Shown here: one piece after another, positions 2,855 through 47,861 of the stretch
Layout: each line of letters begins with the position of its first letter
Numbering within the stretch: position 1 is the stretch's first letter
NCBI RefSeq assembly: GCF_014196915.1
Contig: NZ_JACIEP010000023.1
Location: 1 to 50,927 of the forward strand
Length of the DNA: 50,927 nt
Source of the DNA: Dysgonomonas hofstadii
Lineage (GTDB): Bacteria; Bacteroidota; Bacteroidia; Bacteroidales; Dysgonomonadaceae
Direction of reading: 5' to 3'
The notes under the pieces: model-generated
Database searches by the model: none
Told to the model about the DNA's origin: nothing
Seen by the model: only the letters and a program-made list of their open reading frames with translations
Translations under genes and position numbers: made by a program

Positions 2855-3961
2855 ATGGCAACACTGACGAGAGTTCATCTCAGACAACGAGATGCAACAA
2901 GAGGAAGGATAAGCCTCTATTTAGACTACTACCCTGCAATTCGTGATCCCCACTCCATGAAGATGACACGGCGTGAGTATTTGGGTATTTACATTTATGC
3001 AAAGCCTAAAAATGAATTCGAGAAAGAATTCAATAACGAAATGTTGATGAAAGCTGAAGCTATCAGAAGCATAAGGGTACAATCCATTATTAATGAAGAA
3101 TTCGGATTTTTAGACAAGAATAAAGCGAAGGCGGATTTTCTCATCTACTTTAAAACCAAAGCGGAAAAGAAAGATCAGAAATGGATGAAAGTGTATCAAC
3201 ATTTTTCTAACTTCGTCAAAGGCAAATGCACTTTCGGAGAAGTAACAGTAGATCTATGCAATCGGTTTAGGGATTATCTACAGGATGCAAGGCAGTTGAA
3301 AAATAAGAACTATCGGATATCGCAGAATTCAGCGTCCGGATATTTCTCTACTTTCAGAGGATTATTGAAGGTAGCCTATAAAGAGAAGTTTTTTAGAGAG
3401 AATCTGAATGACTTTCTTGATTCAATAGAAACAACTGACGTAAAGAAAGAATATCTTACTCTAGATGAAGTCAAGCTGCTAGCCAACACCCCATGCGATG
3501 ATTACCCGATATTAAAAACTGCTTCTTTGTTCTCCTGCATGACCGGATTGCGAATCAGTGATATATTGAAACTCGATTGGAAAGAAATAGAGCCAGCTTC
3601 GGATGGAGGCTATTGCATGCGATTGCGAACTGAAAAGACTGAAACAGAAACAACCTTGCCGATTAGTGATGAGGCTTTGGATTTATGTGGTAAACGAGGA
3701 AAAGGAAAAGTCTTTAAAGGTCTACAACGAAGCATGACTCAGCAACCTTTAAAAGCATGGGTTGCCAGCGCGGGGATAACAAAACACATTACATTCCATT
3801 GCTTTCGGCATACTTTTGCTACCTTGCAGATAGCTTTAGGAACGGATATTTATACTGTCAGTAAAATGCTTACACATAAAAATGTCTCTACAACACAGAT
3901 ATATGCGGATTTGGTTAGTTCGAAGAAACGAGAATCAGCTAATAAAATAAGCTTAAAATAA
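2855..3961 (+). CDS. Tyrosine recombinase (island integrase)
   Basis: A site-specific recombinase of the phage-integrase family, 368 residues. The N-terminal arm-binding region (1-100) and core-binding domain (about 110-185) precede the catalytic domain. The catalytic set is complete: R233 in TGLRISDIL, a Lys around 254-257 in RTEKTET, H315 and R318 in HCFRHTF, H341 in LTHKN, and nucleophile Y350 in QIYADL. It retains the first catalytic Arg, unlike the two IntDOT-like enzymes further right. It is translated directly after the multi-HTH protein, and the pair sits beside the mnmE 3' end. It is the likely enzyme that inserted this island. Confidence 0.93.
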   Translation: MATLTRVHLRQRDATRGRISLYLDYYPAIRDPHSMKMTRREYLGIYIYAKPKNEFEKEFNNEMLMKAEAIRSIRVQSIINEEFGFLDKNKAKADFLIYFKTKAEKKDQKWMKVYQHFSNFVKGKCTFGEVTVDLCNRFRDYLQDARQLKNKNYRISQNSASGYFSTFRGLLKVAYKEKFFRENLNDFLDSIETTDVKKEYLTLDEVKLLANTPCDDYPILKTASLFSCMTGLRISDILKLDWKEIEPASDGGYCMRLRTEKTETETTLPISDEALDLCGKRGKGKVFKGLQRSMTQQPLKAWVASAGITKHITFHCFRHTFATLQIALGTDIYTVSKMLTHKNVSTTQIYADLVSSKKRESANKISLK

Positions 3962-6985: not shown

Positions 6986-7903
6986 TTAAAAACTTCCATA
7001 ATTCACCTGAAAACATGGTAGTCTCAATTCTTTCCGCCAAAGATCAACCACTTGATCCCTATCATCCAAAACGAATTCAATAAAGTACTTATTCTTAATT
7101 TCAGCCTCATAAATTTCACTTTTGATAACAGAGTCCTTTCGGAAATCTTTAGATTGACGCATCCAAAGCTGGTGATAAGGAATGTCATATCTTTCCAAAA
7201 ATCGAAGAGTTGGTTCACGAAAACGATCTTCCCTTCCTGATACAAGCAGTATCTCATATTCTTCTTTGGCAAAAACTTTCAATGTATTGGCAACAGGAAT
7301 ATTTAATTCATCCTCATCACATGAGCTTGCATCAAATGGGTTGCGATGATTCATTAAAGCTAATGTTCCGTCTAAATCACAAATAATCGCTTTTGGGAGT
7401 GATATGTCTTGCTTAATGGTCAATACACGATTGTCCTGCAAAGGTCGAGTCGAAAAATCAAATACCTTTTTCAATTCTTCCAACTCTTTCATATAACGTT
7501 TCTGAACATTAGTCGGGATATATTTACCGGTTTCTTTATTTCGTTTTTCGCATCGTTCGGCAATTGTTTTGGCTTCTGCTTCAAATATTTTGAATGAAAT
7601 ATCCGCTAAATGATTGAACTTTTCAATATAATGGTTCAGATATTCAGTCTTACAATGTGTAGCATCGAGCAATACGTTGAAGCGTTTGCGTAACAAAACT
7701 TCTATTGAGACATCCAACATTTCTGTTATCATCCCCTCTTCGTACGGAGGAAGATTTGAATATGTGAAATGCATAGTACGAAAATCATCACGGCATAGGC
7801 GCATCCAGTTTTCTTCAGTACGGATAAAATATTTGGAAAAGGTCGATTTTCCCGAACCAGGAGCACCAATTAATATTAATAGTTGTGGATTTTTTCTTTT
7901 CAT
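6986..7903 (-). CDS. T4-like polynucleotide kinase / HAD 3'-phosphatase
   Basis: This 305-residue enzyme should prepare broken RNA ends for ligation: its kinase phosphorylates the 5'-OH, and its phosphatase removes a 3'-phosphate or opens a 2',3'-cyclic phosphate. The kinase part has the P-loop GAPGSGKST (13-21), the CRDDFR motif (37-42) that matches the Asp/Arg substrate site of T4 Pnkp, and an arginine-rich lid (117-136). The phosphatase part is of the HAD type with DLDGTLALMN (176-185; D176 and D178 catalytic), VSGR (221-224) and LDDRDQV near 279. Canonical bacterial Pnkp instead carries a calcineurin-like phosphatase. It is the last gene of the hen1 operon, 15 bp after the ligase gene. 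Confidence 0.93.
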   Translation of the reverse strand: MKRKNPQLLILIGAPGSGKSTFSKYFIRTEENWMRLCRDDFRTMHFTYSNLPPYEEGMITEMLDVSIEVLLRKRFNVLLDATHCKTEYLNHYIEKFNHLADISFKIFEAEAKTIAERCEKRNKETGKYIPTNVQKRYMKELEELKKVFDFSTRPLQDNRVLTIKQDISLPKAIICDLDGTLALMNHRNPFDASSCDEDELNIPVANTLKVFAKEEYEILLVSGREDRFREPTLRFLERYDIPYHQLWMRQSKDFRKDSVIKSEIYEAEIKNKYFIEFVLDDRDQVVDLWRKELRLPCFQVNYGSF

Positions 7904-7918
7904 TTTAATTCTTCTTTT

Positions 7919-9103
7919 TTACAATCTTGTATCCAACCCAGCTTCTGCTTTTTCACCCATAATACGGTCGAAAACCAGATTCTTGAGGAAATAGTTTTCT
8001 TTGTTAATATCTTTGTATGGGACTTTCAATAATTCCCAGTTCAGCATCCAGTCATTGATAGAGCATTCCAGTTTTCGTCCAATATTACGTTTATAGATAT
8101 AGTAGCCATATTGATCATGGAAATTGACACCGTATATCATAGTCAAATATTGGTTATTTCTCACTTTGAAAGCTGGGGGCATTCCTTTGATAAAAGCTTG
8201 CCGGGGTTTGATAACAATTCCTTCTTCGCTATTCTTCTCTAATGTAGCAAACCAAGAATAAACAGTTTCTATTGATTGATCTAATTCTGTATCATTATCT
8301 ATCGACAGATGTAAAAATTCATCATCATTTACTTCTTTATAACTAAGGTTGTCATTTACAAATTCCTCCGAACCGTCATCAAATACTTTCTTTAAAATAT
8401 TGAAAGGTTTGAAATAAATATCTCCCTGTTGCCCGAAATGATTGATCTGAGTCTCGTAGACATCAATGCTTTGCTTGTAAACAGTCAAATCCAACACCTT
8501 AAATTCAAATAGAGATTCATATTGACGGATGATATGGTGCGGATACTTTGCTCTGAGATCCTTGGTTGACAGCATATTTTTATCTTCAATGAATTGCTTG
8601 TAGGCATCTGATTCTCTTACGGCTTCAATCTTTTTATACAAACTGGAATTTGCGAGGTGTTCAAAGTGATTTTGATGCACGTTTAAATATCCACCAAATT
8701 CATTTTCTATTAATCCTTTACCCATAGAACTCCAAGGCATCAATTCAGATTGAATTATTATTAATTGTAAGTTAGTCCAATCGAAACGAGCATGTAATTC
8801 ACGACAAGCTTCTTTTGCAGCATCCAAATCGATATGGTCTATTTTGTGCCCATTGCGACTTACAAAATAAGTATCTTCCAAATTTTTGTTTAAGTAAATG
8901 TCGCAATACGATCCCATATATTTTTTCTCGACAACGACCTCTTTTATTCCATTATCATAAAAATAACGGATAGCCTTGTCGATACTCTCAATTTCCTTTC
9001 GCTCCGGCGATTTAGGCGCAGGGGATATGGTTGGAGAAAAGGCATTTATTTTATTCTCACAAAACCAATCTATTCTATTCTTTAGTCTTTTTAGGTCTTC
9101 CAT
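7919..9103 (-). CDS. Stand-alone Pnkp-type RNA ligase
   Basis: An ATP-dependent RNA ligase of 394 residues that should seal 3'-OH/5'-phosphate ends. Motif I is KYMGS, with K61 as the AMP-accepting lysine. SRNG follows at 82-85, motif III lies in FEFKVLDL (199-206), motif IV is EGIVIKP (294-300) and motif V is AFKVRN (311-316, K313). Two stretches match the ligase domain of bacterial Pnkp rather than T4 Rnl1: ELMPWS at 120-125, and the C-terminal end NLVFDRIMGE...LDTRL. In canonical Pnkp this domain is fused to kinase and phosphatase and needs Hen1 for full activity. Here it is a separate chain. Its ATG directly follows the stop of the nucleotidase gene. Confidence 0.9.
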   Translation of the reverse strand: MEDLKRLKNRIDWFCENKINAFSPTISPAPKSPERKEIESIDKAIRYFYDNGIKEVVVEKKYMGSYCDIYLNKNLEDTYFVSRNGHKIDHIDLDAAKEACRELHARFDWTNLQLIIIQSELMPWSSMGKGLIENEFGGYLNVHQNHFEHLANSSLYKKIEAVRESDAYKQFIEDKNMLSTKDLRAKYPHHIIRQYESLFEFKVLDLTVYKQSIDVYETQINHFGQQGDIYFKPFNILKKVFDDGSEEFVNDNLSYKEVNDDEFLHLSIDNDTELDQSIETVYSWFATLEKNSEEGIVIKPRQAFIKGMPPAFKVRNNQYLTMIYGVNFHDQYGYYIYKRNIGRKLECSINDWMLNWELLKVPYKDINKENYFLKNLVFDRIMGEKAEAGLDTRL

Positions 9104-10033
9104 TTATTTTATTTTTTGTGTATTTGTAATTCCGAATGGAATGTGTACTGCAGGAATATTTTTCAAATGAGATAAATGCCCTAATTGATCATCGAAGAAT
9201 ATATGGGGATGCATTACATCTAATACTCTAGCCTTATCAATACCTCCCAAAAAGAAAGCTTCATTTACGTCTACGCCCCAGTTCTTTAAGGTATTGATTA
9301 AGCGCTCATGAGCAGGTGCATTTCTTGCTGTTACTATAGAAGTCTTTAATATTCTTTTATAATTTCTATCTTCCATCATCTTCTTAGACTCCATTTTTTG
9401 AAAAATAGCTATTCTTGCAAAAAGATTCGCCAATAAGCCTGGTTTAAGAGGTATAGTTGCATTATTTTGTTCAGATAAGTGGAACGCTTCCATCCCTTTA
9501 GATTGATAAACTTTTTCAGCATCATCATTAGCTATGACTCCATCAAAATCAAAAGCAATTCTTAATTCATCACTTTCATCATCTTCCATTCTTGCATCCA
9601 ATACTCTCCCTGCTGCATAACCATTCTCACATGCGGCTCTTACGTCATTTTCATCAGCAGATAAAAACAAGGATGTATTAAATGCAGGTAAATATTCATA
9701 AGGAGATGAGCCTGAGAAAAAAGCTGCCCTAGTAATATTTAGATCATATTTCTTTATGGACCTAAAAGCTCGAAGACCTGTCTCAGGACTATTTCTCGAA
9801 AGTAATATGACCTCTACAGGTTGCTCCTCTGAAAATATATTATTCAAATTTAGCAGTCTCTTTATAAAAGGGAATGCGACCCCTTTTTCAAAGGTTCTAT
9901 CTATATTTTGTTCTTGATATTTTTTATACTCTTCTACACCTTTCTCTTTGAATATTTGGTGAGATTCAGATAAATCAAATAAAGCACTTGAGGCTACAGC
10001 TATTACTAATTTCTTATCTATTGGATATGGCAT
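9104..10033 (-). CDS. Cytosolic 5'-nucleotidase I-like HAD protein
   Basis: This 309-residue protein resembles the cN-I (NT5C1) family of HAD 5'-nucleotidases, which hydrolyse nucleoside monophosphates. The HAD nucleophile motif is FDFDGVIAND at 161-170 (D162 and D164). Other family marks are an N-terminal region starting KLVIAVASSALFDL, the stretch ILLSRNSPETGLR near 76-88, SIVTARNAP near 232 and a C-terminal IFFDDQ. It lies between hen1 (9 bp away) and the ligase gene (directly adjacent) in one operon. Its role in repair is not established: it may clear nucleotides made by the other enzymes or act on RNA ends. Confidence 0.85.
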   Translation of the reverse strand: MPYPIDKKLVIAVASSALFDLSESHQIFKEKGVEEYKKYQEQNIDRTFEKGVAFPFIKRLLNLNNIFSEEQPVEVILLSRNSPETGLRAFRSIKKYDLNITRAAFFSGSSPYEYLPAFNTSLFLSADENDVRAACENGYAAGRVLDARMEDDESDELRIAFDFDGVIANDDAEKVYQSKGMEAFHLSEQNNATIPLKPGLLANLFARIAIFQKMESKKMMEDRNYKRILKTSIVTARNAPAHERLINTLKNWGVDVNEAFFLGGIDKARVLDVMHPHIFFDDQLGHLSHLKNIPAVHIPFGITNTQKIK

Positions 10034-10042
10034 ATATAAAAG

Positions 10043-11347
10043 TTATTTGTTGTTTCTTGTTATCACACAACCTTGCGTGGGTTGAATACCATTTAAATTA
10101 TCTCCCAATTGGAAAAATTCAATATTTATATCTTTACTTTCGGTACATTCTGCAATCAGATTAAGAAACTCTTGTCGAGTTGGCTCAAAATGGTGGTCAT
10201 CATGACGAAACTCTGTCTCCATATTGTAGAACTGATTAAACTCTGCATTCGGTGTTGTTATAATCAATTTATTGAAATTGTATGACAAAGCTTCCTGTAT
10301 CAATTCTTTTGCTATACCTACAGGATTATGTTCAATAACCTCAGTTAGTAGAATATTTATACAATCGTTAGAATCGAATTCCTCTAATGAATTAAAAAAT
10401 AAAAGATTGTCTTCATCATATCGGCGAGAGATAGTTTCAGCCAATCGCTCAAACTTCTCATCATGATCTACTGCATAATAGATAGATGAAAACTCTTTAT
10501 TCATCATCTTTTTATAGTATGTAAATTCGCCACAACCAATATCAAGAATTGGGATATCTCGTTCTAATAGATTAGTTATAAAATGAATTCGTTGCAGATA
10601 TGTTCCTTGTAATACTAGATTGGCTTCTAATCCGTATTTTGCCAGATAATCTTCAAAGACGGGTTTTAACTCATTAAACTGTCGTTCCGATTTTACTGCT
10701 TTCATTATAAACAGGTAGAAAACGAAATAAGGCACATTATCTATGTTTGTCAATATACGTCCGTACTTTTGAGCAAGGCCATCGTCGATATAAGTAAACA
10801 TTCCATAATCGTTAGTCACATGTGTAAACAGTGAGACTAAAGCCAATAAATTAAATGCTTCGAATGTACTTTTAGCCGAAATCGTAAGGTTAAAAATACG
10901 ACCTGACTGTTGTGTGACTTTTACCCCCTCAAAATATTTGGTTGGCAGGAATCTACCGTTTCTGTACCAGTTAGAATCAATATAGAACGATGGTATTTCA
11001 ATGACACAAGGTTCTATATCAGCTTCACCTTGAGTAATACCAAGCCACTGAATATCTTTTGATGCAAATTCGTCCTTGCTTTTTAATATATGTCCAAATA
11101 GTTCATTACAGATATGTAACACGGCCAATGGTGTACAATAGCTCTGATAATCTATCTGATTAGACTCTTCGGGCATATAACTATACTTGGTGTCTTGAAA
11201 TACAACTTCGTAATAATTCTTGTTGACTGCATTCCCTACAATCTGCCCGTTCTTCAATGGTTTAAAATACAACCCATTGTCTGTATCCGGATTTTTATAT
11301 AGGATATCTAATAGTCGGTCATTTTCGCTCTTAATTTTTAAAATCAT
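10043..11347 (-). CDS. hen1: Hen1 RNA 3'-end 2'-O-methyltransferase
   Basis: Hen1 adds a methyl group to the 2'-OH of the terminal ribose at a break, so the repaired junction cannot be cut again at the same site. The C-terminal half (about 240-434) is the methyltransferase: SAM motif LDIGCGE (268-274), the metal-binding TEVIEH (E336, E339, H340), TTPNAEFN (364-371) and RHDDHHFEPTR (381-391), which carries the remaining metal-ligand His. These match the Hen1 signature closely. The N-terminal half (1-240) is divergent but has the length of the bacterial Hen1 domain that binds and activates the ligase. The gene heads a four-gene operon. A 36-bp promoter/operator block lies directly upstream. Confidence 0.93.
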   Translation of the reverse strand: MILKIKSENDRLLDILYKNPDTDNGLYFKPLKNGQIVGNAVNKNYYEVVFQDTKYSYMPEESNQIDYQSYCTPLAVLHICNELFGHILKSKDEFASKDIQWLGITQGEADIEPCVIEIPSFYIDSNWYRNGRFLPTKYFEGVKVTQQSGRIFNLTISAKSTFEAFNLLALVSLFTHVTNDYGMFTYIDDGLAQKYGRILTNIDNVPYFVFYLFIMKAVKSERQFNELKPVFEDYLAKYGLEANLVLQGTYLQRIHFITNLLERDIPILDIGCGEFTYYKKMMNKEFSSIYYAVDHDEKFERLAETISRRYDEDNLLFFNSLEEFDSNDCINILLTEVIEHNPVGIAKELIQEALSYNFNKLIITTPNAEFNQFYNMETEFRHDDHHFEPTRQEFLNLIAECTESKDINIEFFQLGDNLNGIQPTQGCVITRNNK

Positions 11348-11373
11348 AATTGGTTGTTCTTTGATTTATGATG

Positions 11374-11409
11374 CAAAGTAAAATAGAGGATGCGCAGTAT
11401 TTTTGCGCA
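11374..11409 (-). promoter_or_regulatory. Operator and promoter block upstream of hen1
   Basis: A perfect inverted repeat TGCGCA-N7-TGCGCA lies at 11391-11409. Nine bases closer to hen1, at 11374-11381, the minus strand reads TTACTTTG, one mismatch from the Bacteroidota -7 consensus TAnnTTTG. No good -33 box is found at the right distance; that position falls inside the inverted repeat. 32 of the 36 bases are identical to the block at 15327-15362. This suggests a shared regulator, probably the WYL protein. Confidence 0.75.
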
Positions 11410-11414
11410 CACAT

Positions 11415-11987
11415 TTATTTTTTAATAAAATGTTCAATTATCTCTTTATAATCTGTTTGAAAGACCACTATCAAGGTATGCACGGTGTCTGATAACCAAG
11501 ATAAAATAGTGTCATGAAGTATATCTACATAAATATCAAAATCCTTTTCACTCAGATTAATAGAAGAATCGTGCACGATGACTATATCTTTCTCTTCAAT
11601 CCACATAAAATCATTTAAACAATCATTTACAGCATCCCAATTACGACCAAAGTAGTTTGGAAATCGGAGCTTTTCAGATAACTCGTCAAATAAATGTTTT
11701 ACTCCATTTATCTTAGATATGTGCGTTATAAATGATTTTCTCACTTCGAATTCAGATGGTTTCGACATGAAAATTATATGACTATCTACGCATGTTTGAT
11801 TTTTCTTAAACATATCTCTTGCCTGATTTAGTGATAAAGTATTCGCTCCTATTTCATAGTCAGGATTATGAAGTTGAATAGCATCGTCTTCCCATCCACA
11901 AATAGGACAAATCAGGAATGTTCCACCAATTTCTTCTTCATGATCAAATATTCCACAACAAGGACAATGTGTATTTGGTTTTTTCAT
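11415..11987 (-). CDS. CPCC-domain and barstar-domain fusion protein
   Basis: This 190-residue protein joins two domains known from immunity proteins. Residues 1-65 form a cysteine-rich CPCC domain (CPCC at 8-11, then CPICGWEDDAIQ at 27-38). Residues about 80-190 are barstar-like, with the signature FPNYFGRNWDAVNDCLND. Barstar inhibits RNases such as barnase by blocking the active site. The start overlaps the end of the HEPN gene by 4 bp, so the two are co-translated. A plausible inference is that it neutralises an RNase, either the adjacent HEPN protein or one from outside. HEPN toxins are not usually paired with barstar, so this pairing needs testing. Confidence 0.87.
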   Translation of the reverse strand: MKKPNTHCPCCGIFDHEEEIGGTFLICPICGWEDDAIQLHNPDYEIGANTLSLNQARDMFKKNQTCVDSHIIFMSKPSEFEVRKSFITHISKINGVKHLFDELSEKLRFPNYFGRNWDAVNDCLNDFMWIEEKDIVIVHDSSINLSEKDFDIYVDILHDTILSWLSDTVHTLIVVFQTDYKEIIEHFIKK

Positions 11988-13489
11988 ATTTTATATTCTT
12001 CATCAATTTCTGGATATTCTTGAGAAGCAATAAAACCACTTAATTTGTTTTTTTCTTCCTCAATAAGTACACCCTTACATAAGTAAATAATAGAAGCACG
12101 CACTAGAGACAAAAGTTTTAATGCTTTCTCTTCAAACTCTTCCCTTGATATCTCTAGAGTTAGATCGTTATCTATTTTCTTCATTTCTCCCCCAAAATCA
12201 TAGTCAATTATTTTAAATGACTTGTGTTCTATAAAATTTCTTATGTCTGCTATATTTTCAGAATCAGGATCAACTATAAAATTCTGATCTTTGAAATAGA
12301 GATCTTTACTTACCCAATAGAGCCCTTTTATAGCCCAATTCTGACCATCGTTAAATTCTTCTCTTAATTGTTTGTTTTTTCTGTCTTTATACCATATTTT
12401 GCTGAAATTGATTTCGTGGGGCTTTACATCAATTCTGAAATATTCTCGTAGGAGATATGCTATTTTATCAAAAATGGAGTAACAAATTCTATATGCAGCT
12501 TTTGCTTTTTCCATGCTATAAGAATATATAGAATAATCAAATGTATCCATTAAATAATTATTCTTATCAGAAAAGTGTTTTTCCTGACAAAAAACAGCTT
12601 CATATAAAAAGCATCTAGCTGAAACATATTCCTGCTTGATCTGATTAAATATATTCTGATAAACGTAATTAGGATAATTTTCTTTTTTATAAGTTATTGA
12701 AGGCAAAAAGAGATCATCTTCTGCGGCTATCTTATTTATTGTAATGTCATTTAATGAATTTAAAAACAATCTATTATCCAAACTCCATTCTCGATACTCT
12801 ATTTCTTTTTTTGTTGTGCCAATATTATAGTTATCCCAATTAAAACTTAGAGATAAATTTTGTTCTCCAATAAACTCTTCGAGATTATTAACTAAATCTT
12901 TTATTTGGCTCTTTATGGTAATGCTTATATCATTATATCTTAAACATGACTTGAGGAGGTTATATGCTTTTTGAAAATATATAATTTGAGTTTTATCATC
13001 AATATATCGTGCATATCTTAAAATACCATGCCCTATGTTACATATTGCCATTCCAAAATCAGGATAGACTTCGAGTGCTTTATTCCACATGATATGAGCA
13101 TCAACAAAGCGTCCAATATGATCATAGCTATTTCCTAAATTAACATAAACTTGAGCTTTCTGAAAAGAGGAATTACCATGTCCAAAATATTTAATAGACA
13201 GTCTCAAATAAAAAATTTGTTTTTCTTGTTTGTTACATACAAAGGGTATATCCTCTGGTGCAATTTCCTGATTCATTTGATTAGCCCAAGCATTTGATAA
13301 AAAGTAATAAAAAATGCTTTTTTCTTCCGAAGAAAAATCTTTGATATCGAGATTTTCTGCGTAATGTATTATTCCTTTTAACTTTTCAATATCGTGTTTA
13401 TCGCCAGCTTCATTAATCTCATTGCCAAGGAATTCAATAACTTCCATAGAAGTTAAATCGTCATAGTTTACTATAACATAATCATTCAT
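11984..13489 (-). CDS. LA2681-like HEPN protein with TPR-like N-terminus
   Basis: A 501-residue protein. The N-terminal half (1-210) is helical with TPR-like repeats (for example SSFQKAQVYVNLGNSYDHIG and the DAHIMWNKALEVYPDFGMAI stretch). The C-terminal half matches the LA2681-like HEPN family: RLFLNSLNDITINKIAAEDD, NQIKQEYVSARCFLYEAVF, DKIAYLLREYF and GLYWVSKDLYF. It ends with R417-N418-F-I-E-H422, the RNxxxH motif of metal-independent HEPN ribonucleases. It probably cleaves RNA under some trigger, with the TPR part as sensor or scaffold. It lies between rlaP and the CPCC-barstar gene (4-bp overlap) in the repair operon. The cleavage target cannot be read from sequence. Confidence 0.85.
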   Translation of the reverse strand: MNDYVIVNYDDLTSMEVIEFLGNEINEAGDKHDIEKLKGIIHYAENLDIKDFSSEEKSIFYYFLSNAWANQMNQEIAPEDIPFVCNKQEKQIFYLRLSIKYFGHGNSSFQKAQVYVNLGNSYDHIGRFVDAHIMWNKALEVYPDFGMAICNIGHGILRYARYIDDKTQIIYFQKAYNLLKSCLRYNDISITIKSQIKDLVNNLEEFIGEQNLSLSFNWDNYNIGTTKKEIEYREWSLDNRLFLNSLNDITINKIAAEDDLFLPSITYKKENYPNYVYQNIFNQIKQEYVSARCFLYEAVFCQEKHFSDKNNYLMDTFDYSIYSYSMEKAKAAYRICYSIFDKIAYLLREYFRIDVKPHEINFSKIWYKDRKNKQLREEFNDGQNWAIKGLYWVSKDLYFKDQNFIVDPDSENIADIRNFIEHKSFKIIDYDFGGEMKKIDNDLTLEISREEFEEKALKLLSLVRASIIYLCKGVLIEEEKNKLSGFIASQEYPEIDEEYKI

Positions 13490-13501
13490 AATCTCAACTT
13501 T

Positions 13502-14560
13502 TTACTTATACAATTCTTCTCTCATTTCAACCAATACCTTTTCCGCCACTTGTTTATCAGGTGTATCAGGTAAAGTAGAAGTTAAACAATACGATTCTAT
13601 ATTCTCCATCAACCTATCAGCCATAGCCAATAAATCATCATAATCCATATTACCCGATTTTATATCAAGTAGTTGTTCCCTGTTAAGTCTTTTGACATTC
13701 AACTTTCCATCCCGCAATATTTCCTCTGCCACCTGCAACAGTCGTATAGTGTGCATCATATTTTTAGAATCGTAATTCTTTCCATGATTCAAGTTTGTCT
13801 GATAGCGATTGTCGTTGCGCTCTTCCACCCAATCCCAATATTCCTTATACTCTTTACAATAGAGCGAATAAGCTTCCATATTCCAATATAGATAGGCAAG
13901 AGCCTGTTGTCCTTTAGGTATGGATGATAGTGACACCTCATTGGCTGTATCTTTTACGGCTATACCATGATAACCATATTTGTTTTCAGAATCATAGAAT
14001 AGAGCGTACATACCTTTGGCATGAGAGATTGAACTCAATCCGCACAATTCCTGCATATAACCTTGCTTGTCGAGCCATTCTTTTACAGGAACAGATTGAT
14101 AATTATCCATTATATAGCAAAAGTACAATACTGTTTTAGGTTCTTTCTCCATCGGATTCACAACCTTCTTTTTATATCCTCTTGCCTTTCGTATCTGAGT
14201 CAGGGCATAGCCCGCAAAAGTATCTTTACATAGCTTGGATAAGAACATATCTATATGAAGCTTGTCCATCAATGGATGTTTATATAATATACATTCATTT
14301 GGAGAAGCCAATAGTTCCAATAGATTCGGATTGTTTTTACAAAGTAACTCGACAAATCGCCCCAGTTCATAATACACCTCATCATTGGTTTCATTACTTA
14401 TCTGAGGTATATATTCCAAGCCATAAAACTGCTCTTTGGGCAGATAAAATACCCCTTTCAGATCAGTATCCGACTGTGGGGTCTCTAATCCGTATGCTTT
14501 GCTGCCACTCACACATTCAAAAAGAAGCAGCCCTTTATCTTTTATTTCTTGTATAGTCAT
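13502..14560 (-). CDS. RlaP-family nucleotidyltransferase (second of two)
   Basis: This 352-residue protein is a DNA polymerase beta-like nucleotidyltransferase of the COG3541/RlaP group, which is associated with RNA-repair operons. The active site is visible as GSKAYGLETPQSDTDLKG (19-36), with GS at 19-20 and catalytic D31 and D33. The C-terminal helical part has the family mark NYDSKNMMHTIRLLQVAEEIL, followed by ...LNREQLLDIKSGN. Such enzymes could add nucleotides to trimmed RNA ends before sealing, by analogy with CCA-adding enzymes; that role is inferred. Its ATG overlaps the stop of the other rlaP gene by 4 bp. The HEPN gene starts 12 bp after its stop. Confidence 0.88.
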   Translation of the reverse strand: MTIQEIKDKGLLLFECVSGSKAYGLETPQSDTDLKGVFYLPKEQFYGLEYIPQISNETNDEVYYELGRFVELLCKNNPNLLELLASPNECILYKHPLMDKLHIDMFLSKLCKDTFAGYALTQIRKARGYKKKVVNPMEKEPKTVLYFCYIMDNYQSVPVKEWLDKQGYMQELCGLSSISHAKGMYALFYDSENKYGYHGIAVKDTANEVSLSSIPKGQQALAYLYWNMEAYSLYCKEYKEYWDWVEERNDNRYQTNLNHGKNYDSKNMMHTIRLLQVAEEILRDGKLNVKRLNREQLLDIKSGNMDYDDLLAMADRLMENIESYCLTSTLPDTPDKQVAEKVLVEMREELYK

Positions 14561-15306
14561 TTTAATATCGTTTTTCTAAAAAACTCATCAGCTATCTTTC
14601 GGTCAAAGTCTTTCTTTGTTAGTTGTTGAGAAGCTTCCATACAATAGTCGAATGTCCGATCTATCCATGTTTTTATATCTTGATCTATTTCTATCAAATA
14701 ACTTTCATTTGCTGTTGATTTCAACTCTATCAAAGATAAAACCTTTTTACGCAAATCATCTGTCAATAAATCCATTAAAAGAAATATATTCATTGGAGAT
14801 ATTGTATTCTTTTCTGCACACCACAAAGCTGCAAGAGTTGGTCGAAGTACATAAAACAGTTTCTTTATTTTTATATCTTTCCCATTCATAGTCTCCATCG
14901 CTCCTCGTGCTATACCCAGATAATGATGTATGTTGCTGCGAGGGCAAAAATAGCTTTTACAAAGTGTCCACACTTCATCTTTGAATGTGGTATCTTCTTT
15001 ATATATTACAGGTGATTGTAGCCATTCGAATGGAGTAGTATTCGACTTGGTTATCAGCTGCAATACTTTTGATATATCCCACCCATATATATCCAATTCA
15101 TTGTTTATAGGAAAAGACAGATGATCTTTCTTTGACTGTATTGTCAGGTAATCTTCAAGCTGTCGAGTGTATATAAACCTCACATCATAATCACTATCAG
15201 GTGAAGGAAATCCCCATGCTCGGCTACCTGACTCACAGGAATAAAGTATTTTTATTCCGCAGGCTTTTTCTATCTCAGTTAGTTTTTGTTGTATAGTTGT
15301 TTTCAT
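14557..15306 (-). CDS. RlaP-family nucleotidyltransferase (first of two)
   Basis: This shorter relative (249 residues) has the same active-site layout: GSRAWGFPSPDSDYDVRF at 27-44, with GS at 27-28 and catalytic D39 and D41. The C-terminal helical region contains GIARGAMETMNG and LRPTLAALWC, typical of the compact RlaP/YbbB-like form. It leads the minus-strand operon and its stop overlaps the start of the longer homologue (ATGA). The tandem pair may form a heterodimer or act on different ends. The start at 15306 is the only ATG before the conserved N-terminus, and it lies 20 bp from the promoter block at 15327-15362. Confidence 0.87.
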   Translation of the reverse strand: MKTTIQQKLTEIEKACGIKILYSCESGSRAWGFPSPDSDYDVRFIYTRQLEDYLTIQSKKDHLSFPINNELDIYGWDISKVLQLITKSNTTPFEWLQSPVIYKEDTTFKDEVWTLCKSYFCPRSNIHHYLGIARGAMETMNGKDIKIKKLFYVLRPTLAALWCAEKNTISPMNIFLLMDLLTDDLRKKVLSLIELKSTANESYLIEIDQDIKTWIDRTFDYCMEASQQLTKKDFDRKIADEFFRKTILK

Positions 15307-15326
15307 TGTTATTTACTTTAATGGTA

Positions 15327-15362
15327 CAAAGTAAAATACAGCATACGCAGTATTTTTGCGTA
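15327..15362 (-). promoter_or_regulatory. Operator and promoter block upstream of the rlaP operon
   Basis: The inverted repeat TACGCA-N7-TGCGTA lies at 15344-15362, and the minus-strand TTACTTTG box at 15327-15334. The spacing between them is the same 9 bp as at the hen1 site. Only 4 of 36 bases differ from that site. Two of those are the outer arm bases of the inverted repeat, changed on both sides so that dyad symmetry is kept. This supports a protein-binding site rather than chance similarity. Confidence 0.78.
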
Positions 15363-15387
15363 ATGAAAAACATTTTTATTATTTTTG
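15355..15387 (+). promoter_or_regulatory. Promoter for the secreted-protein/wyl operon
   Basis: On the plus strand TTTG at 15355-15358 and TATTTTTG at 15380-15387 fit the Bacteroidota -33/-7 pattern, with 21 bp between them. The -33 box lies inside the right half of the inverted repeat at 15344-15362, so the protein that binds there would also control this promoter. The first gene starts 28 bp downstream. Confidence 0.6.
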
Positions 15388-15415
15388 AGAATAAATACCC
15401 ATAAATCTAAATCTT

Positions 15416-16312
15416 ATGAAAAAAACAACTTCTTTTTTTATCTTCTTCCTGATTACATTTGGTCTGCATGCTCAAAATAAACAATCGAAACTTATAGAAC
15501 TAGGTAAAACATACAAAAATTTTATGTTTGTGAATAACCCTACGGATGACTATGTGAAAAATCTAAAAGAGAATAGCTCAGAGGATTTAATGGCTACTAC
15601 AGATTTCATTATCCAAACCATAATTCCGAAAACAAAAATTATTGATAAAGCTTATTTAACTTTGCCTGATGAACAGACTCTGAAAAACATCTACATTGTT
15701 TGCTCTGTCAATTATAATCTCCATGCCAAAGAACCAGTAACGAATGAGCAGATAGTAGATAGTCTATTAAATATTACTATTCCCAGATATGAAATGATTG
15801 ATAGATATTACAGCATGTTGTTTGCCTCATATGGGAATAAAGTAAAGCCATTTAATATGTCTAAAATTGATTTTCGTTTGCATGAATATAATTTACAGAA
15901 TGATACAGAGAAGGGTATTCTGTTTTTACGTTGTATGGAGTTTTGTGGTAAACAGATTTGGGGGTTAATAAATATTGCAAAACCGATGAATACTAAAGGA
16001 GCTTATGAAAATATAAAGAAATATCCTAAATTCAATGGATTAAAGTACTATCAGTATAATGATTTCAATTTTCCTGATTTTGAAATGGTTATTTATACAA
16101 ATAGAGGAAAAGAAAGTTATAAAAACTACTTTATAGGTAAATATTATGAGGTCCTCTTGAATCATTTGCTATGTATTAAAAAAGAAGATAAATCGGAAAA
16201 AGAATATCATGAACTGTTATTAGGCTCTATTTTGAGAGATAAAGATTATTATAAGTATTCTAAAAACAAAGATATCTTAGAAGGTCTTTTTAAAGAAATA
16301 AAAACAGATTGA
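15416..16312 (+). CDS. Secreted or periplasmic protein of unknown function
   Basis: I do not recognise this 298-residue protein. It begins with a classical signal peptide (MKK, a hydrophobic stretch SFFIFFLITFGL and an AQ cleavage site near residue 20). The remainder is helical, polar and lysine-rich. There is no lipobox and no further membrane segment. It is the first gene after the divergent promoter region and lies 10 bp before the WYL regulator gene, so the two share a transcript. A secreted protein co-transcribed with a cytoplasmic RNA-repair regulator is unexpected. It may sense an envelope or extracellular signal, but that is speculation. Confidence 0.65.
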   Translation: MKKTTSFFIFFLITFGLHAQNKQSKLIELGKTYKNFMFVNNPTDDYVKNLKENSSEDLMATTDFIIQTIIPKTKIIDKAYLTLPDEQTLKNIYIVCSVNYNLHAKEPVTNEQIVDSLLNITIPRYEMIDRYYSMLFASYGNKVKPFNMSKIDFRLHEYNLQNDTEKGILFLRCMEFCGKQIWGLINIAKPMNTKGAYENIKKYPKFNGLKYYQYNDFNFPDFEMVIYTNRGKESYKNYFIGKYYEVLLNHLLCIKKEDKSEKEYHELLLGSILRDKDYYKYSKNKDILEGLFKEIKTD

Positions 16313-16322
16313 GAATAATACT

Positions 16323-17339
16323 ATGCCAGTAAACCGTAACGCCCTAATCCGCTATAAAACAATAGATACTTGTCTACGTAATAAATATAGACAGTGGACA
16401 CTTGAAGACCTTATAGATGCTTGTTCTGACGCTCTCTATGAATATGAAGGAATAGACAAAGGTATCAGCAAACGCACTGTGCAAATGGATATTCAGATGA
16501 TGCGCAGCGAGAAACTAGGTTATAATGCACCTATTATTGTTTATGATAATAAATACTACAAATATGAAGATGAGGATTACAGCATAACTAATACGCCATT
16601 GTCAGAACAAGACTTGAAAACAATGTCTGAAGCTGTTGAGGTTTTGCGTCAATTCAAAGGGTTCTCTTACTTTTCAGGTATGGGCGATATCGTCAGCCGC
16701 TTGGAAGATCATGTAACTTCGGCAAAACAGAAAACTATACCTGTTATAGACTTTGAGAAAAACAAAAGCCTGAAAGGGTTGGATTATCTTGATATTATTT
16801 ATCATGCTATTGTCAACAAGCAAGCACTAAATTTGAAATATCGTTCATTCAAAGCCCGCTCGGCAAATACATTCTTATTCTATCCTTATTTACTAAAAGA
16901 ATATCGCAACAGATGGTTTGTATTTGGCCGACGAAAGGGAAATCTAATCAATCTGGCATTAGATAGAATACATAGTGTAGAGATCGCTGAGAAAGAAAGA
17001 TTTATAGAAAATAATTTATTCGATCCTCAGACTTTCTTTGATGATTTGGTTGGTGTTACTAAGAATGTAGGGATGAAAGCTCAGTCTGTCCGTTTCTGGG
17101 TAAATAAAGAAAATGCACCTTATGTACAGACTAAACCTTTTCATAAAAGCCAGAAAATAGTTGAAGAGCACGAGGACGGTTCCAAAACATTCGAAATTAA
17201 TGTGGTTATCAATCAGGAGCTACAAAGGGAGTTCTTTGGATATGCCGATACTATAAAGATCTTATCTCCACAATCATTAGTTGACTTTATGGCTTGGAAA
17301 TTAAGATTGGCAAAGGAACAATACGAAAGTGATATATAA
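16323..17339 (+). CDS. WYL-domain transcriptional regulator
   Basis: A 338-residue regulator. Residues 1-80 form an N-terminal winged-helix region (ISKRTVQMDIQMMRSEKLGY is the recognition part). The WYL domain spans about 155-225, with YPYLLKEYRNRWFVFGRRKG and a following LALDRIHSVE. WYL domains bind nucleic acid or nucleotide ligands and often control defence and repair operons. The gene lies divergent from the rlaP operon. The inverted repeats at 15344-15362 and 11391-11409 are its most likely operators, giving control of both repair operons and of itself. Whether it activates or represses is unknown, but the missing -33 boxes at the repair promoters fit activation. Confidence 0.9.
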   Translation: MPVNRNALIRYKTIDTCLRNKYRQWTLEDLIDACSDALYEYEGIDKGISKRTVQMDIQMMRSEKLGYNAPIIVYDNKYYKYEDEDYSITNTPLSEQDLKTMSEAVEVLRQFKGFSYFSGMGDIVSRLEDHVTSAKQKTIPVIDFEKNKSLKGLDYLDIIYHAIVNKQALNLKYRSFKARSANTFLFYPYLLKEYRNRWFVFGRRKGNLINLALDRIHSVEIAEKERFIENNLFDPQTFFDDLVGVTKNVGMKAQSVRFWVNKENAPYVQTKPFHKSQKIVEEHEDGSKTFEINVVINQELQREFFGYADTIKILSPQSLVDFMAWKLRLAKEQYESDI

Positions 17340-18856: not shown

Positions 18857-20107
18857 TTATTTCTTGCCCGGCTTATCTTTGGGTGTTGTATTAGACTTCA
18901 TGAAATCCTCGATGAGGTATTCTAGCTTATCCTTCACCAGATCTATCTCATCCAATATTTTCTGATCAAGTATCTTGGCATATATCTGGGTCGTTTTCAA
19001 GTCGGAATGTCCAAGGATCTTAGCAATACTTTCGATGGGCATTCCTTTGGTTATCATAAGCGTGGCAAAAGTTCTTCTGGCCATGTGCATCGTTAATATT
19101 TTCCGAATACTGCAAGTTTTTCCGATGGGTTTTAAACGATCGTTCATCTGTTTATTAGTCGGAACAGGGAAAATATATTCTGTCTTACTTTTGTATTTCT
19201 TTATCAGAACCAGAGGAATTGGCAGTAAAGGTATAAAGCATGGATTGTTTGTCTTACTACGATTCATCATAATGATGTTATCTGTTATATCTGAATGTTT
19301 TAAGTGCTTTAAATCAATATAAGATAACCCCGTGAAGCAGCAGAATAAGAACATATCCCGAACCCTGTTCAAGGATAAATTATCAAATTCCTGTATTATA
19401 ATTCGCTGTAATTCTTTCTCTGTCAAGACTTGTTTTTCCGGCTTCTTTACGCTCAACACGGTATCGACAAAAGGGTCCCTGTCTATATAACGATTCCGGT
19501 AAGCACTAGTGGTTACTTGCTTCAAGCGGCGCATATGCCTTATCATTGTATTGTGAGAGCAATTTCCTTCACTTAAAAGATACACTTCGAAACCCGTTAC
19601 GAACTCATGATTGATCTTCTTTAGGTTAATATCTTTTGAATGATAGGTTGATTTCAGAAAATCAATTATTTTTCTTCTGGTACAGATATAGCTGTCTGCT
19701 GAAGCTGCTTCAATTACCTTGCTTTTCACTAATGACTGCTTCTGACCAATCAGCTTATCGAATAAATCCATGAGAAAATATTCTTCGCCCAGACTGTCTT
19801 TACCTAAAAAAATATTCCTTATCCTTGTTATAGTAACAATATCTTCCTTGGCTGCCAATTTGTAATACAAATTCTCTAAATCAACATGAATAGACATTAA
19901 TGAACGATTAATGTCACGGGCTAGTTTTGTATACCCGATGGCCTTCTGTGCCTGTGAGTTCCAGAGAACCGGATCTATATTTATTCCGGATGCGAATGAA
20001 AGAGATTGACGGTCCAGCTTTAGCTGCACGTTGATAGGAGTTGAACCTTTGGAGTTCAACTTCGTTCTTTTGATGAAAAACTTTACACTGAATCTAAAGT
20101 TAATCAT
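18857..20107 (-). CDS. Tyrosine recombinase, IntDOT-like
   Basis: A 416-residue recombinase with an arm-binding domain (1-95; FSVKFFIKRTKLNSKGSTPI start), a core-binding domain (105-210) and a catalytic domain (225-390). Catalytic residues seen are K285 in RSKTNN, H341 and R344 in HMARRTF, H367 in LGHSD and the nucleophile Y376 in QIYAKI. The first catalytic Arg is replaced by S262 in FTGLSYIDLK. IntDOT of the CTnDOT elements has a Ser at this place too, so the enzyme can be active. It converges on the three small HTH genes and diverges from a second integrase at 20878. Confidence 0.93.
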   Translation of the reverse strand: MINFRFSVKFFIKRTKLNSKGSTPINVQLKLDRQSLSFASGINIDPVLWNSQAQKAIGYTKLARDINRSLMSIHVDLENLYYKLAAKEDIVTITRIRNIFLGKDSLGEEYFLMDLFDKLIGQKQSLVKSKVIEAASADSYICTRRKIIDFLKSTYHSKDINLKKINHEFVTGFEVYLLSEGNCSHNTMIRHMRRLKQVTTSAYRNRYIDRDPFVDTVLSVKKPEKQVLTEKELQRIIIQEFDNLSLNRVRDMFLFCCFTGLSYIDLKHLKHSDITDNIIMMNRSKTNNPCFIPLLPIPLVLIKKYKSKTEYIFPVPTNKQMNDRLKPIGKTCSIRKILTMHMARRTFATLMITKGMPIESIAKILGHSDLKTTQIYAKILDQKILDEIDLVKDKLEYLIEDFMKSNTTPKDKPGKK

Positions 20108-20877: not shown

Positions 20878-22071
20878 ATGCGAGAAACGTTTCGGGTATT
20901 GTTCTTCATTAGAAAAAATCAACTGAAGGACAATGGACTAGCAACGATTATGATCCGGATAACAATCAACGGAAAACAAATTCAGTTTAGCAGTAAGCTA
21001 GAAATTGATCGTACCGCCTGGTCTCAGAAGGAAAATAAAGCGATAGAAGATCCTTTTCTGTATATTAATGAACTTCTAGAGGAAATAAGAAGTAAAATAA
21101 AAGTTCTTTACTTCGATTTGTCATCCAAACATCAGGTTATATCTCCTTCCATGCTCAAGCAGGCATATTTAGGAAACGGTGATGAAATGCTCCTTAGCTA
21201 TCAGTTTAAAGAGCAAGTCAAAATATTCCGTTCTAAAAACGGCAGAAGCATATCGGATGTCACAGCAAACTGTTACAAGCTTACCCATAACCGTATCACC
21301 GAGTTTATGTTTAAGAAATATAAGAAAAAAGGTATAATGATTCAGGATATTGATCTGATATTTCTAGAGCATTTTTACAATTACCTGAGAGAACAATATC
21401 ACTGTAGCAATAATACATCAATGAAGTACATGAAACGATTTGCAGCTATTCTAAATTTTGCAGAGAAGATCGGATTATTAAAGATCAATCCATTTAAACT
21501 TTTCCGGTTCCATATTGAAAAGAAATATCCGGTTTATCTGACAGAAGACGAGGTAAACCTGATTACTGACAAAACCTTTATGACAGAGCGATTAAACAGG
21601 GTTAGGGATGTTTTTGTATTTTGTTGTTGGACAGGTATATCCTATAGGGATGTTTGTAATTTGACAGTTTCTGATATCCAATGCCGTAATAAAAAATACT
21701 GGCTCATTTTTATCAGGCAGAAAACCGATAATATATCACAAATACCGCTACTGGATGTTCCTTTGCAAATACTGGAAAAGTATCACCCCGATTATCATAA
21801 ATATTCTGGCGACAAACCTCTGTTTTCTATGTCCAGTAACCAGAAAACTAATGAATATCTCAAAGAGATAGCTAATATCTGCGGTATTCAGAAGAGTATC
21901 AGCTTCCATGTTAGCAGACACACATTTGCTACACTGGCGCTTAATAAAGGTGTTTCCTTGGAGTCTGTAAGTAAGATTCTCGGACATACGAACATCAGAA
22001 CGACAATGCTTTATGCGAATGTTACAAATCAGAAGATAGAATCAGAAATGAATAGAATGAGGAAAACATAA
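20878..22071 (+). CDS. Tyrosine recombinase, second IntDOT-like enzyme
   Basis: A 397-residue recombinase with the same architecture as the divergent one: arm-binding (1-90), core-binding (105-215) and catalytic (220-385) domains. H344 and R347 are in HVSRHTF, H370 in LGHTN and nucleophile Y379 in MLYANV. The first catalytic Arg is again replaced by Ser, S255 in WTGISYRDV. The two proteins are clearly related but not near copies, so they came from different elements or an old duplication. It starts at the ATG next to the conserved N-terminus. AT-rich palindromes begin directly after its stop. Confidence 0.92.
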   Translation: MRETFRVLFFIRKNQLKDNGLATIMIRITINGKQIQFSSKLEIDRTAWSQKENKAIEDPFLYINELLEEIRSKIKVLYFDLSSKHQVISPSMLKQAYLGNGDEMLLSYQFKEQVKIFRSKNGRSISDVTANCYKLTHNRITEFMFKKYKKKGIMIQDIDLIFLEHFYNYLREQYHCSNNTSMKYMKRFAAILNFAEKIGLLKINPFKLFRFHIEKKYPVYLTEDEVNLITDKTFMTERLNRVRDVFVFCCWTGISYRDVCNLTVSDIQCRNKKYWLIFIRQKTDNISQIPLLDVPLQILEKYHPDYHKYSGDKPLFSMSSNQKTNEYLKEIANICGIQKSISFHVSRHTFATLALNKGVSLESVSKILGHTNIRTTMLYANVTNQKIESEMNRMRKT

Positions 22072-45745: not shown

Positions 45746-46267
45746 ATGGTAGAAAAAGAACACAGATTAACGGCAGAGGAGTATATTAAGTCATACAGGG
45801 AGAGTCATAAAAACTTAGAAATTAACGAAGAACAAATGGACAACATATGTTCAAGCATTGGAGAGATATATGATTGTGGAGAGAAGACGCCCAACTATTA
45901 CAGGGCTGACTTAATAAGTTTGCTTTTTTATGTTAGAGTACTGGTGACATATCACACAGAAAGCATTCCAAATCAATTTAAAAAATCCTTCATAGGAAAT
46001 TGTGGAGGAGCATCCTTTCCTGGAAGTACATACTATTCAGCAGGTAATCTATGTACAAAAAAAGGTCATTCTTTTGATGACATTTTTCATAAACAAGAAT
46101 CAATAAGTATAATTGGCCCAACACCAGTAATCGCGTTCGCTATTATACATTTTTATGAAAAAAAGAGCAATTTACTTGGTTGGCTAGAGCTTGTTGGTGC
46201 TGGAACTGTATTTGGTGTTATGGGGGCACAGGTAATTGGAAAGATGGGGATTTATAAACAAATTTAA
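45746..46267 (+). CDS. VapA-like protein (tentative)
   Basis: A 173-residue protein without signal peptide. Residues 80-170 resemble the beta-barrel core of the Rhodococcus equi VapA family: the strand pattern NCGGASFPGSTYYSAGNL, the middle SISIIGPTPVIAFAIIHFYEK, the turn KSNLLGWLE and the glycine-rich end GAGTVFGVMGAQVIGKMG. I judge this from memory of the family pattern, not from an alignment. The N-terminal 70 residues are polar and helical. The genes on both sides are broken, so it probably arrived with a lost element. The last 32 bp overlap the start of the next frame. Confidence 0.45.
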   Translation: MVEKEHRLTAEEYIKSYRESHKNLEINEEQMDNICSSIGEIYDCGEKTPNYYRADLISLLFYVRVLVTYHTESIPNQFKKSFIGNCGGASFPGSTYYSAGNLCTKKGHSFDDIFHKQESISIIGPTPVIAFAIIHFYEKKSNLLGWLELVGAGTVFGVMGAQVIGKMGIYKQI

Positions 46268-47824: not shown

Positions 47825-47861
47825 AACACTTATAATTTTGTGGGCTTTGCCTTTAGGCAAA

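Follow-up and report, generated by a model that had tools for sequence, protein, structure and literature searches.

How RNA repair of the Pnkp-Hen1 type is switched on has not, to our knowledge, been established. This question is raised by a ten-gene island at positions 6986 to 17339 of contig NZ_JACIEP010000023.1 of Dysgonomonas hofstadii (Bacteroidota; assembly GCF_014196915.1), which was analyzed over its full 50,927 nucleotides (the window; one contig of a 5.04-Mb genome). The island contains a Pnkp1-Rnl-Hen1 trio, two RlaP nucleotidyltransferases, a WYL regulator and four further genes, and has a common palindrome in front of each of its two repair transcription units. We propose, with a probability of about 0.72, that the locus is one of a WYL-controlled RNA-damage regulon with interchangeable repair modules and local cargo. 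The sequence evidence covers the core enzymes, the geometry of the predicted operator, and regulon membership by position.

A first-pass annotation had described a ten-gene RNA break-and-repair island with its own regulator. The ten genes, their positions, strands and families are borne out by the list of open reading frames (ORFs) and by Pfam, which gives families for nine of the ten (the secreted protein matches no Pfam or NCBIfam family). The eight minus-strand genes are tightly spaced, with gaps of 0-15 bp or 4-bp overlaps (RlaPa/RlaPb and HEPN/CPCC-barstar), and their intergenic spacing is operon-like; the sole wide gap, of 67 bp, separates the CPCC-barstar gene from hen1. Absent from that annotation was the palindrome TRCGCA-N7-TGCGYA, common to both promoter regions, which lies in this 67-bp gap before hen1 (TGCGCAGTATTTTTGCGCA) and again before the RlaP operon (TACGCAGTATTTTTGCGTA). 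The features are as follows.

6986..7903, minus strand: pnkp1, T4-type kinase and HAD phosphatase (Pfam AAA_33; Pfam HAD_PNKP, 1e-48; PDB 4xrp_A Pnkp1, E 1.2e-104, residues 6-305)
7919..9103, minus strand: rnl, PNKP-ligase-type RNA ligase (Pfam PNKP_ligase, 8.3e-25; PDB 4xru_B Rnl, E 3.9e-151, residues 1-394)
9104..10033, minus strand: cN-I-like 5'-nucleotidase, local cargo (Pfam 5-nucleotidase, 1.5e-124; PADLOC candidate PDC-S08, 1.4e-134)
10043..11347, minus strand: hen1, 3'-terminal 2'-O-methyltransferase (Pfam Hen1_N, 8e-64; PDB 4xrp_C profile, E 7.9e-166)
11374..11381, minus strand: predicted -7-type box TTACTTTG of the hen1 promoter (TTTG ends 17 nt past the operator)
11391..11409, no strand: predicted operator palindrome TGCGCAGTATTTTTGCGCA before hen1 (palindrome scan; counterpart in 28 of 33 loci)
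11415..11987, minus strand: CPCC-barstar fusion, putative RNase inhibitor, local cargo (Pfam Cys_rich_CPCC, 5.2e-21; Barstar, 1e-17)
11984..13489, minus strand: TPR-HEPN_LA2681 protein, putative RNase, local cargo (Pfam HEPN_LA2681, 4.3e-69; TPR below cut-off)
13502..14560, minus strand: rlaPb, nucleotidyltransferase (Pfam RlaP, 4.9e-24, N-terminal part; alignment)
14557..15306, minus strand: rlaPa, nucleotidyltransferase (Pfam RlaP, 1.7e-71, full length; alignment)
15327..15334, minus strand: predicted -7-type box TTACTTTG of the rlaPa promoter (TTTG ends 17 nt past the operator)
15344..15362, no strand: predicted operator palindrome TACGCAGTATTTTTGCGTA between the rlaPa and secreted-WYL operons (palindrome scan)
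15416..16312, plus strand: secreted-type protein, local cargo (signal-peptide-like start by eye; no Pfam or NCBIfam match)
16323..17339, plus strand: WYL-WCX regulator, proposed operator binder (Pfam WYL, 3.5e-12; WCX, 4.8e-11; co-occurrence with sites)

At up to three mismatches the palindrome has two matches in the window and no more, against 0.06 expected. The two copies first appeared in a scan's list of four terminator-like sites, which is uninformative about terminators (4 versus 5.0 expected), as is a sigma-70 promoter scan about promoters (45 versus 53.7 expected). The wider comparison used 33 loci carrying the trio, namely the window and 32 from a scan of named genomes seeded by two Hen1 peptide patterns; several are contigs of two genome-sample searches, and the set is not a census (designations such as L029 are our handles for loci and stretches, and G407 and the like for genomes). 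The genome samples comprised 395 genomes across the phylum, 101 relatives (the D. hofstadii genome included) and 295 genomes of the order. In 28 of the 33 loci, the 200 bp upstream of hen1 contain a palindrome with no more than one arm mismatch. Exact sites number 73 over 659 kb, of which 68 are outside ORFs of at least 100 aa; none was found in 20 first-order Markov sets, and each of eleven scrambled palindromes matched once at most. ORFs starting within 300 bp of a site encode Hen1 (24), T4-type RNA ligase (12), RlaP (3), TROVE (1) and others (9).

The sites also have a rigid relationship to a promoter element. TTTG belongs to the Bacteroides -7 box TAnnTTTG, and it ends 17 or 18 nt past the palindrome on the hen1 strand at 70 of the 73 exact sites and on the opposite strand at none; TTTG at four such offsets occurs in 4% of random positions. 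In the 70 spaced sites the A-rich side of the palindrome faces upstream. The palindrome would accordingly span about -41 to -22 and so occupy the position of the -33 element, and because the spacing and orientation are strict, these predicted operator and promoter features favor an activator over a repressor, without proof.

Several observations connect the sites with the WYL gene. ORF clustering (all ORFs of at least 70 aa from the 32 loci and window positions 1-26000, 590 ORFs) places a WYL regulator in 22 of the 33 trio loci, a lower bound – like the corresponding RlaP count – where contigs are short. Among the 101 relatives, 11 have a full-length WYL orthologue (at least 74% identity), and two or more exact sites are present in 9 of these 11 genomes versus 6 of the 90 others (Fisher p 1.2e-7), at least one site in 9 of 11 versus 25 of 90 (p 8e-4), and sites with an A4/T4 spacer in 9 of 11 versus 3 of 90 (p 5.5e-9), all three tests ignoring phylogeny. 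These counts exclude a partial WYL match at 78% identity (G452, residues 185-335, no site) and a stop-bearing second partial WYL copy in G408; with G452 counted, the tally for two or more sites would be 9 of 12 versus 6 of 89. Of all 54 sites, ten have a WYL gene no more than 1 kb away, and for two of these the distance is about 40 bp, to WYL genes of only 51-54% identity. At up to two mismatches the D. hofstadii genome has two sites beyond those of the window. One is 50 bp before a nitroreductase-DUF6713-WYL operon (L137:4953-7311; G000:C4), which includes a nitroreductase-ferredoxin gene and a WYL protein 92-93% identical to that of the window; the other is an exact operator with spaced TTTG, 83 bp before an orphan 137-aa gene without a known family (L138:3846-4361; G000:C15) that is a possible trans member of the regulon. 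The earlier claim that the island has its own regulator is therefore upheld indirectly, through the shared operator-promoter unit; that the WYL protein binds the operator, activates transcription and has a ligand are steps that we infer.

There are points that weigh against this proposal, and they bear on two other ways of reading the same sites. Five of the 33 loci lack a palindrome before hen1, although L029 offers only 74 bp of upstream sequence and L021 has a site before RlaPa; L025, L026 and L028 have none. The window operator lacks a spaced TTTG in the direction of the secreted-WYL operon, and the operator at L137 has an imperfect arm and a spaced TTTG that faces away from the WYL operon, with no ORF within 800 bp. 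No WYL gene is in reach in 11 of the 33 trio loci, genomes G407 and G415 carry a WYL gene and no exact site, 25 of the 90 genomes without a close WYL hold at least one site, and many of the trio loci are from one genus, Flavobacterium. If the palindrome were the site of another regulator and the WYL gene a mere neighbor, the two WYL-bearing genomes without exact sites and the loci without WYL would be accounted for; we consider this unlikely in view of the co-occurrence of WYL genes with two or more sites and the proximity of some sites to WYL genes, including divergent ones. Alternatively, the regulon could be as proposed with WYL acting as a repressor over the -33 region that is released on binding its ligand. 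BrxR and CapW are WYL repressors, and the palindrome does occupy the place of the -33 element. Repression is a possible reading, held tentatively, to which publications on WYL regulators of defense systems lend a context (PMC9122601 and PMC9122588), but it does not need a 17- or 18-nt spacing at 70 of 73 sites or an A-rich side that faces upstream, and PafBC activates from a similar position (PMC11804915). Activation by the WYL protein from a promoter-embedded operator is the reading that we carry forward.

The regulon would extend beyond the trio. A second set of 17 sites was taken from 13 stretches around sites, two from the D. hofstadii genome, two from trio genomes, and nine from seven relatives for which a search gave no hen1 of the trio type. 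At 15 of the 17 the TTTG spacing is present, never on both sides; it is missing from a site that falls within an ORF (L148) and from one of the pair in L149. The targets include TROVE/Ro60 (5 sites), RtcB ligase (47 bp away in L141 and 775 bp in L139), RlaPa (L140), a 746-aa-type gene behind a tRNA-like RNA (L143) and genes without a known family, and two sites have no ORF within 800 bp. The RtcB assignment comes from Pfam for L139, and from 81-86% identity for L141 and L142.

The tRNA-like RNAs, of 114-125 nt, match the Rfam tRNA model with an insert and are not called by ARAGORN. They occur in L030, L031, L033, L035 and L039-L048 (e.g. L041:4434-4551) and at L143:2565-2686. In all 14 Flavobacterium loci that have a 746-aa RING-like gene, a tRNA-like RNA is located between the operator-promoter unit and this gene, as it is in one of two loci of the genus Dysgonomonas with a gene of this type (L143, not L149). 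Four loci contain two copies, each behind its own operator. The 746-aa gene of the Flavobacterium loci has no convincing solved relative (best E 0.014). Separately, clusters of three to five ordinary tRNA genes (Ser, Gly, Trp, Asp, Ile, Pro, Ala) were seen in four Flavobacterium repair loci of 24 loci scanned (L036:17167-17741, L039:19455-20271, L048:20933-21273 and L049:18483-18715), and are perhaps spare tRNAs. Searches gave no RNA family in window positions 1-21000 and no tRNA or tmRNA gene over the full window.

The enzymatic core of the island is of a known kind. Over their whole length, Pnkp1, Rnl and Hen1 match the chains of the solved Capnocytophaga gingivalis complex (PDB 4xrp/4xru), and the EVIEH and RHDDH residues of Hen1 are invariant in 8 of 8 sequences. 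The three genes are linked, in a single order, in 33 of 33 loci, the closest named locus being that of Dysgonomonas sp. 520 (Hen1 88% identical). Hen1 of this type is sparsely distributed, in 6 of the 395 phylum-wide genomes (counting D. hofstadii and one weak partial match) and in 4 of the 101 relatives (counting D. hofstadii). The trio is predicted from homology to be an RNA healing, sealing and methylating core with the activity of the C. gingivalis heterohexamer, as the first-pass annotation had also recognized. A classical Pnkp-Hen1 system, with kinase, metallophosphoesterase and ligase in one Pnkp, was considered and rejected; the ligase and the kinase-HAD phosphatase are separate genes here, and TIGR04075 reaches 73.3 and 22.8 bits, where the cut-off is 750. 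Distant Hen1 homologues are also found in five phage records of 158-385 kb (OP883945.1, OP752703.1, AP018399.1, OV032902.1 and AP014858.1) and in six plasmid records, including NZ_CP106993.1 and NZ_CP081847.1; a Paenibacillus plasmid has hen1 and a Pnkp-like gene near a Thg1-type guanylyltransferase.

RlaP is a recurrent companion of the trio. ORF clustering finds 25 RlaP proteins in 15 of the 33 loci, with both paralogues in 10, and in the genomes of L019 and L020 RlaP genes are located further out from the trio locus. D39, D41 and D72, which we take to be the catalytic aspartates, are invariant in 9 of 9 aligned RlaPa and RlaPb sequences; RlaP has no solved relative at E 0.1. In the order, 14 of 295 genomes have RlaP, D. 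hofstadii included. The RlaPa-RlaPb pair is present in 6 of the 13 other loci, and relatives of Hen1, Rnl and Pnkp1 are absent from these 13, of which several are on short contigs.

The remaining four genes behave differently. ORF clustering places neither HEPN nor CPCC-barstar, cN-I or the secreted gene in any of the 32 other trio loci, and phmmer searches of the fetched proteins gave no homologue of CPCC-barstar, cN-I or the secreted protein, and HEPN homologues only in loci fetched for HEPN itself. We class these genes as local cargo, and because four genes are missing from all 32 other loci, the set of ten does not form a conserved module. The HEPN_LA2681 protein has the RNxxxH motif (R417, N418, H422), as had been noted from the sequence, and all 6 aligned homologues keep these residues unchanged; RNase activity is putative. 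The family occurs in 4 of the 395 phylum genomes and, by protein search, in 3 of the 101 relatives (D. hofstadii counted both times), and in the best 60 of 81 PDB matches to its profile only the TPR part is matched. One other HEPN locus has a distant WYL gene (26% identity) adjoining HEPN. The CPCC-barstar fusion is in no other of the 395 genomes, where two matches are to the barstar part alone; two aspartates in its barstar helix align with barstar's own, and are presumably those that contact barnase. Cargo in other trio loci includes a T4 Rnl1-type RNA ligase (17 loci), an AAA ATPase (5), TROVE (4), and DUF5677, DUF3990, GNAT, UPF0167, nitroreductase and an HD-kinase adjoining an additional RNA ligase, most of these families being named from one member tested. 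SUKH-like cargo of seven Flavobacterium loci was not accepted as an immunity family, with one member scoring 23.6 bits against the Pfam cut-off of 25.4. In Flavobacterium jejuense (L049:7011-9929), a 972-aa protein combining a reverse transcriptase and a nitrilase-type (CN_hydrolase) part is encoded immediately before hen1, and we take it to resemble the RT-nitrilase defense proteins.

This distribution also bears on other accounts of the whole island. The first-pass annotation viewed the full gene set as one functional unit, and close spacing and a common operator would agree with all ten genes forming one break-and-repair machine. Its proposed check, for the ordered set in other Bacteroidota, gives linkage for the trio and none for HEPN, CPCC-barstar, cN-I or the secreted gene; with four of ten genes absent from the 32 other trio loci, and repair reconstituted from three proteins (PMC4411300), a ten-gene machine is highly improbable. 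An anti-phage or abortive-infection island, with HEPN as effector and repair genes that reverse damage by HEPN or phage, would draw together the RNxxxH HEPN and RlaP in one transcription unit, the match of cN-I to a candidate defense family, and the distant Hen1 relatives in large phages. It is nonetheless doubtful, as HEPN and cN-I are in none of the 32 related loci and the PADLOC matches make up no complete listed defense system: they are the candidate PDC-S08 (cN-I), generic WYL and Cas3c models on the WYL gene, and a weak mads_8 match (E 5e-4) to the kinase. MNT-HEPN toxin-antitoxin pairs are a precedent for pairing HEPN with a nucleotidyltransferase, and the HEPN gene neighbors rlaPb across a 12-bp gap and overlaps the CPCC-barstar gene by 4 bp. 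A toxin-antitoxin pair of HEPN with either partner is very unlikely, however, since the pairs are not co-conserved; no relative of either partner was found in the five other HEPN loci that were fetched, and RlaP pairs without HEPN are present in 9 other trio loci and in the 6 loci of the order mentioned above.

The regulon so envisaged would operate as follows. RNA cuts made by anticodon nucleases, RNase bacteriocins or phage-triggered RNases would yield a nucleic-acid ligand that turns on the WYL protein, for which an RNA fragment is the likeliest candidate. Bound to the palindromic operator before both repair transcription units, it would recruit RNA polymerase to promoters in which the operator replaces the -33 region, by a sigma adaptation like that of PafBC. 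RlaPa and RlaPb may replace or add nucleotides at damaged ends, and Pnkp1 would heal the ends, Hen1 2'-O-methylate and Rnl seal them, leaving a junction that resists a second cut. The cargo is presumably acquired locally into the same transcription units, and its roles are guesses: HEPN as a putative RNase serving disposal or growth arrest, CPCC-barstar as an RNase inhibitor, cN-I in nucleotide salvage, and the secreted protein as an envelope factor. End extension by RlaP, damage sensing and a repair role for HEPN or barstar are likewise conjectural. At its most general, the idea is of a Bacteroidota RNA-damage response paralleling SOS and PafBC, with an RNA-fragment-activated WYL protein, a single rigid operator-promoter unit, interchangeable modules (Pnkp1-Rnl-Hen1, RtcB, Ro60/TROVE, RlaP pairs, T4-type ligase and tRNA-like RNAs) and species-specific cargo (RNase inhibitor, HEPN RNase); on this broader formulation we are evenly divided.

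The surroundings of the island have several features of note. GC content is 0.30-0.35 in the island and 0.35-0.40 upstream, in 2-kb windows; low GC extends to about 28 kb, past which it is 0.36-0.44. Three mutually related (clustered) genes, named by eye as tyrosine-recombinase-like, flank the island (2855-3961, 18857-20107 and 20878-22071), and the first follows an mnmE-like gene (266-1657, also by eye). The mnmE-like and recombinase-like genes suggest mobile-element borders, and the flanking recombinase-like genes, together with the absence of any flanking family common to the window and L018 by ORF clustering, fit movement of the island. Further along, facing ORFs at 46236-46883 and 46865-47860, by eye an integrase and a kinase-like P-loop protein, overlap by 19 bp, and both appear cut short.

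With a short operator and a fixed promoter geometry, the question of the switch becomes approachable with one protein and two promoters. The operator-promoter unit also serves as a genome-wide handle, which in relatives tags RtcB, Ro60, RlaP, tRNA-like RNAs and a second RNA ligase. Telling core from local cargo among the ten genes makes barstar and HEPN separable from the view of one machine.

The enzymes themselves are already known. The C. gingivalis Pnkp1-Rnl-Hen1 complex has been reconstituted and mends ribotoxin-cleaved tRNA in vitro with 2'-O-methylation (Wang et al. 2015, PMC4411300). All three D. hofstadii subunits are full-length homologues and separate proteins, as in that complex; they differ in that the genes are contiguous, whereas PMC4411300 reports ten species with such a hen1 and places hen1 far from the rnl-pnkp1 operon, and in that the trio is joined to RlaP, WYL, a shared operator and cargo. 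RlaP is predicted to add nucleotides to cleaved RNA (PMC7824862); the proteins here agree in family, conserved aspartates and association with RNA ligases, and differ in being two distinct paralogues in a recurrent tandem pair tied to one operator. On Enterococcus raffinosus plasmid NZ_CP081847.1, WYL genes are likewise divergent from hen1, pnkp and RlaP (50% identical to RlaPa), but there is a single fused Pnkp (annotated as a metallophosphoesterase), two WYL genes and no comparable cargo.

For regulation, the general idea of WYL proteins sensing nucleic-acid fragments is in print: WYL domains are predicted to sense nucleotides or nucleic-acid fragments (Makarova et al. 2014, PMC4012209), and it has been suggested that cyclic-phosphate RNAs may influence transcription factors of the CARF and WYL types, some controlling RNA repair (PMC9503650). 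RtcR, which acts on the rsr-yrlBA-rtcBA genes, is similar in regulating RNA repair including Ro60 and RtcB and in that broken tRNA can signal their expression (PMC7790460), but it is a CARF/sigma-54 protein, and the island regulator matches WYL and WCX only. Of the work cited here, that on RtcR alone defines a signal. PafBC is a WYL activator that binds single-stranded DNA and then takes up a position between sigma and a -26 motif (PMC11804915), and so resembles the proposed regulator in being a WYL protein with a nucleic-acid ligand and a motif near -26 that replaces the -35 contact; the WYL and WCX domains and a motif at fixed distance from the promoter box (70 of 73 and 15 of 17 sites) are what a sigma-adapting WYL protein would show. 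PafBC differs as a heterodimer responding to DNA damage in Actinobacteria, in contrast to a single gene, RNA repair, Bacteroidota and predicted binding. Our literature searches found no operator, promoter unit or member list for such a regulon, and Burroughs and Aravind (2016) may mention WYL genes in such operons. What is new relative to these systems is the common operator-promoter control of RNA-repair genes, probably by the adjoining WYL regulator.

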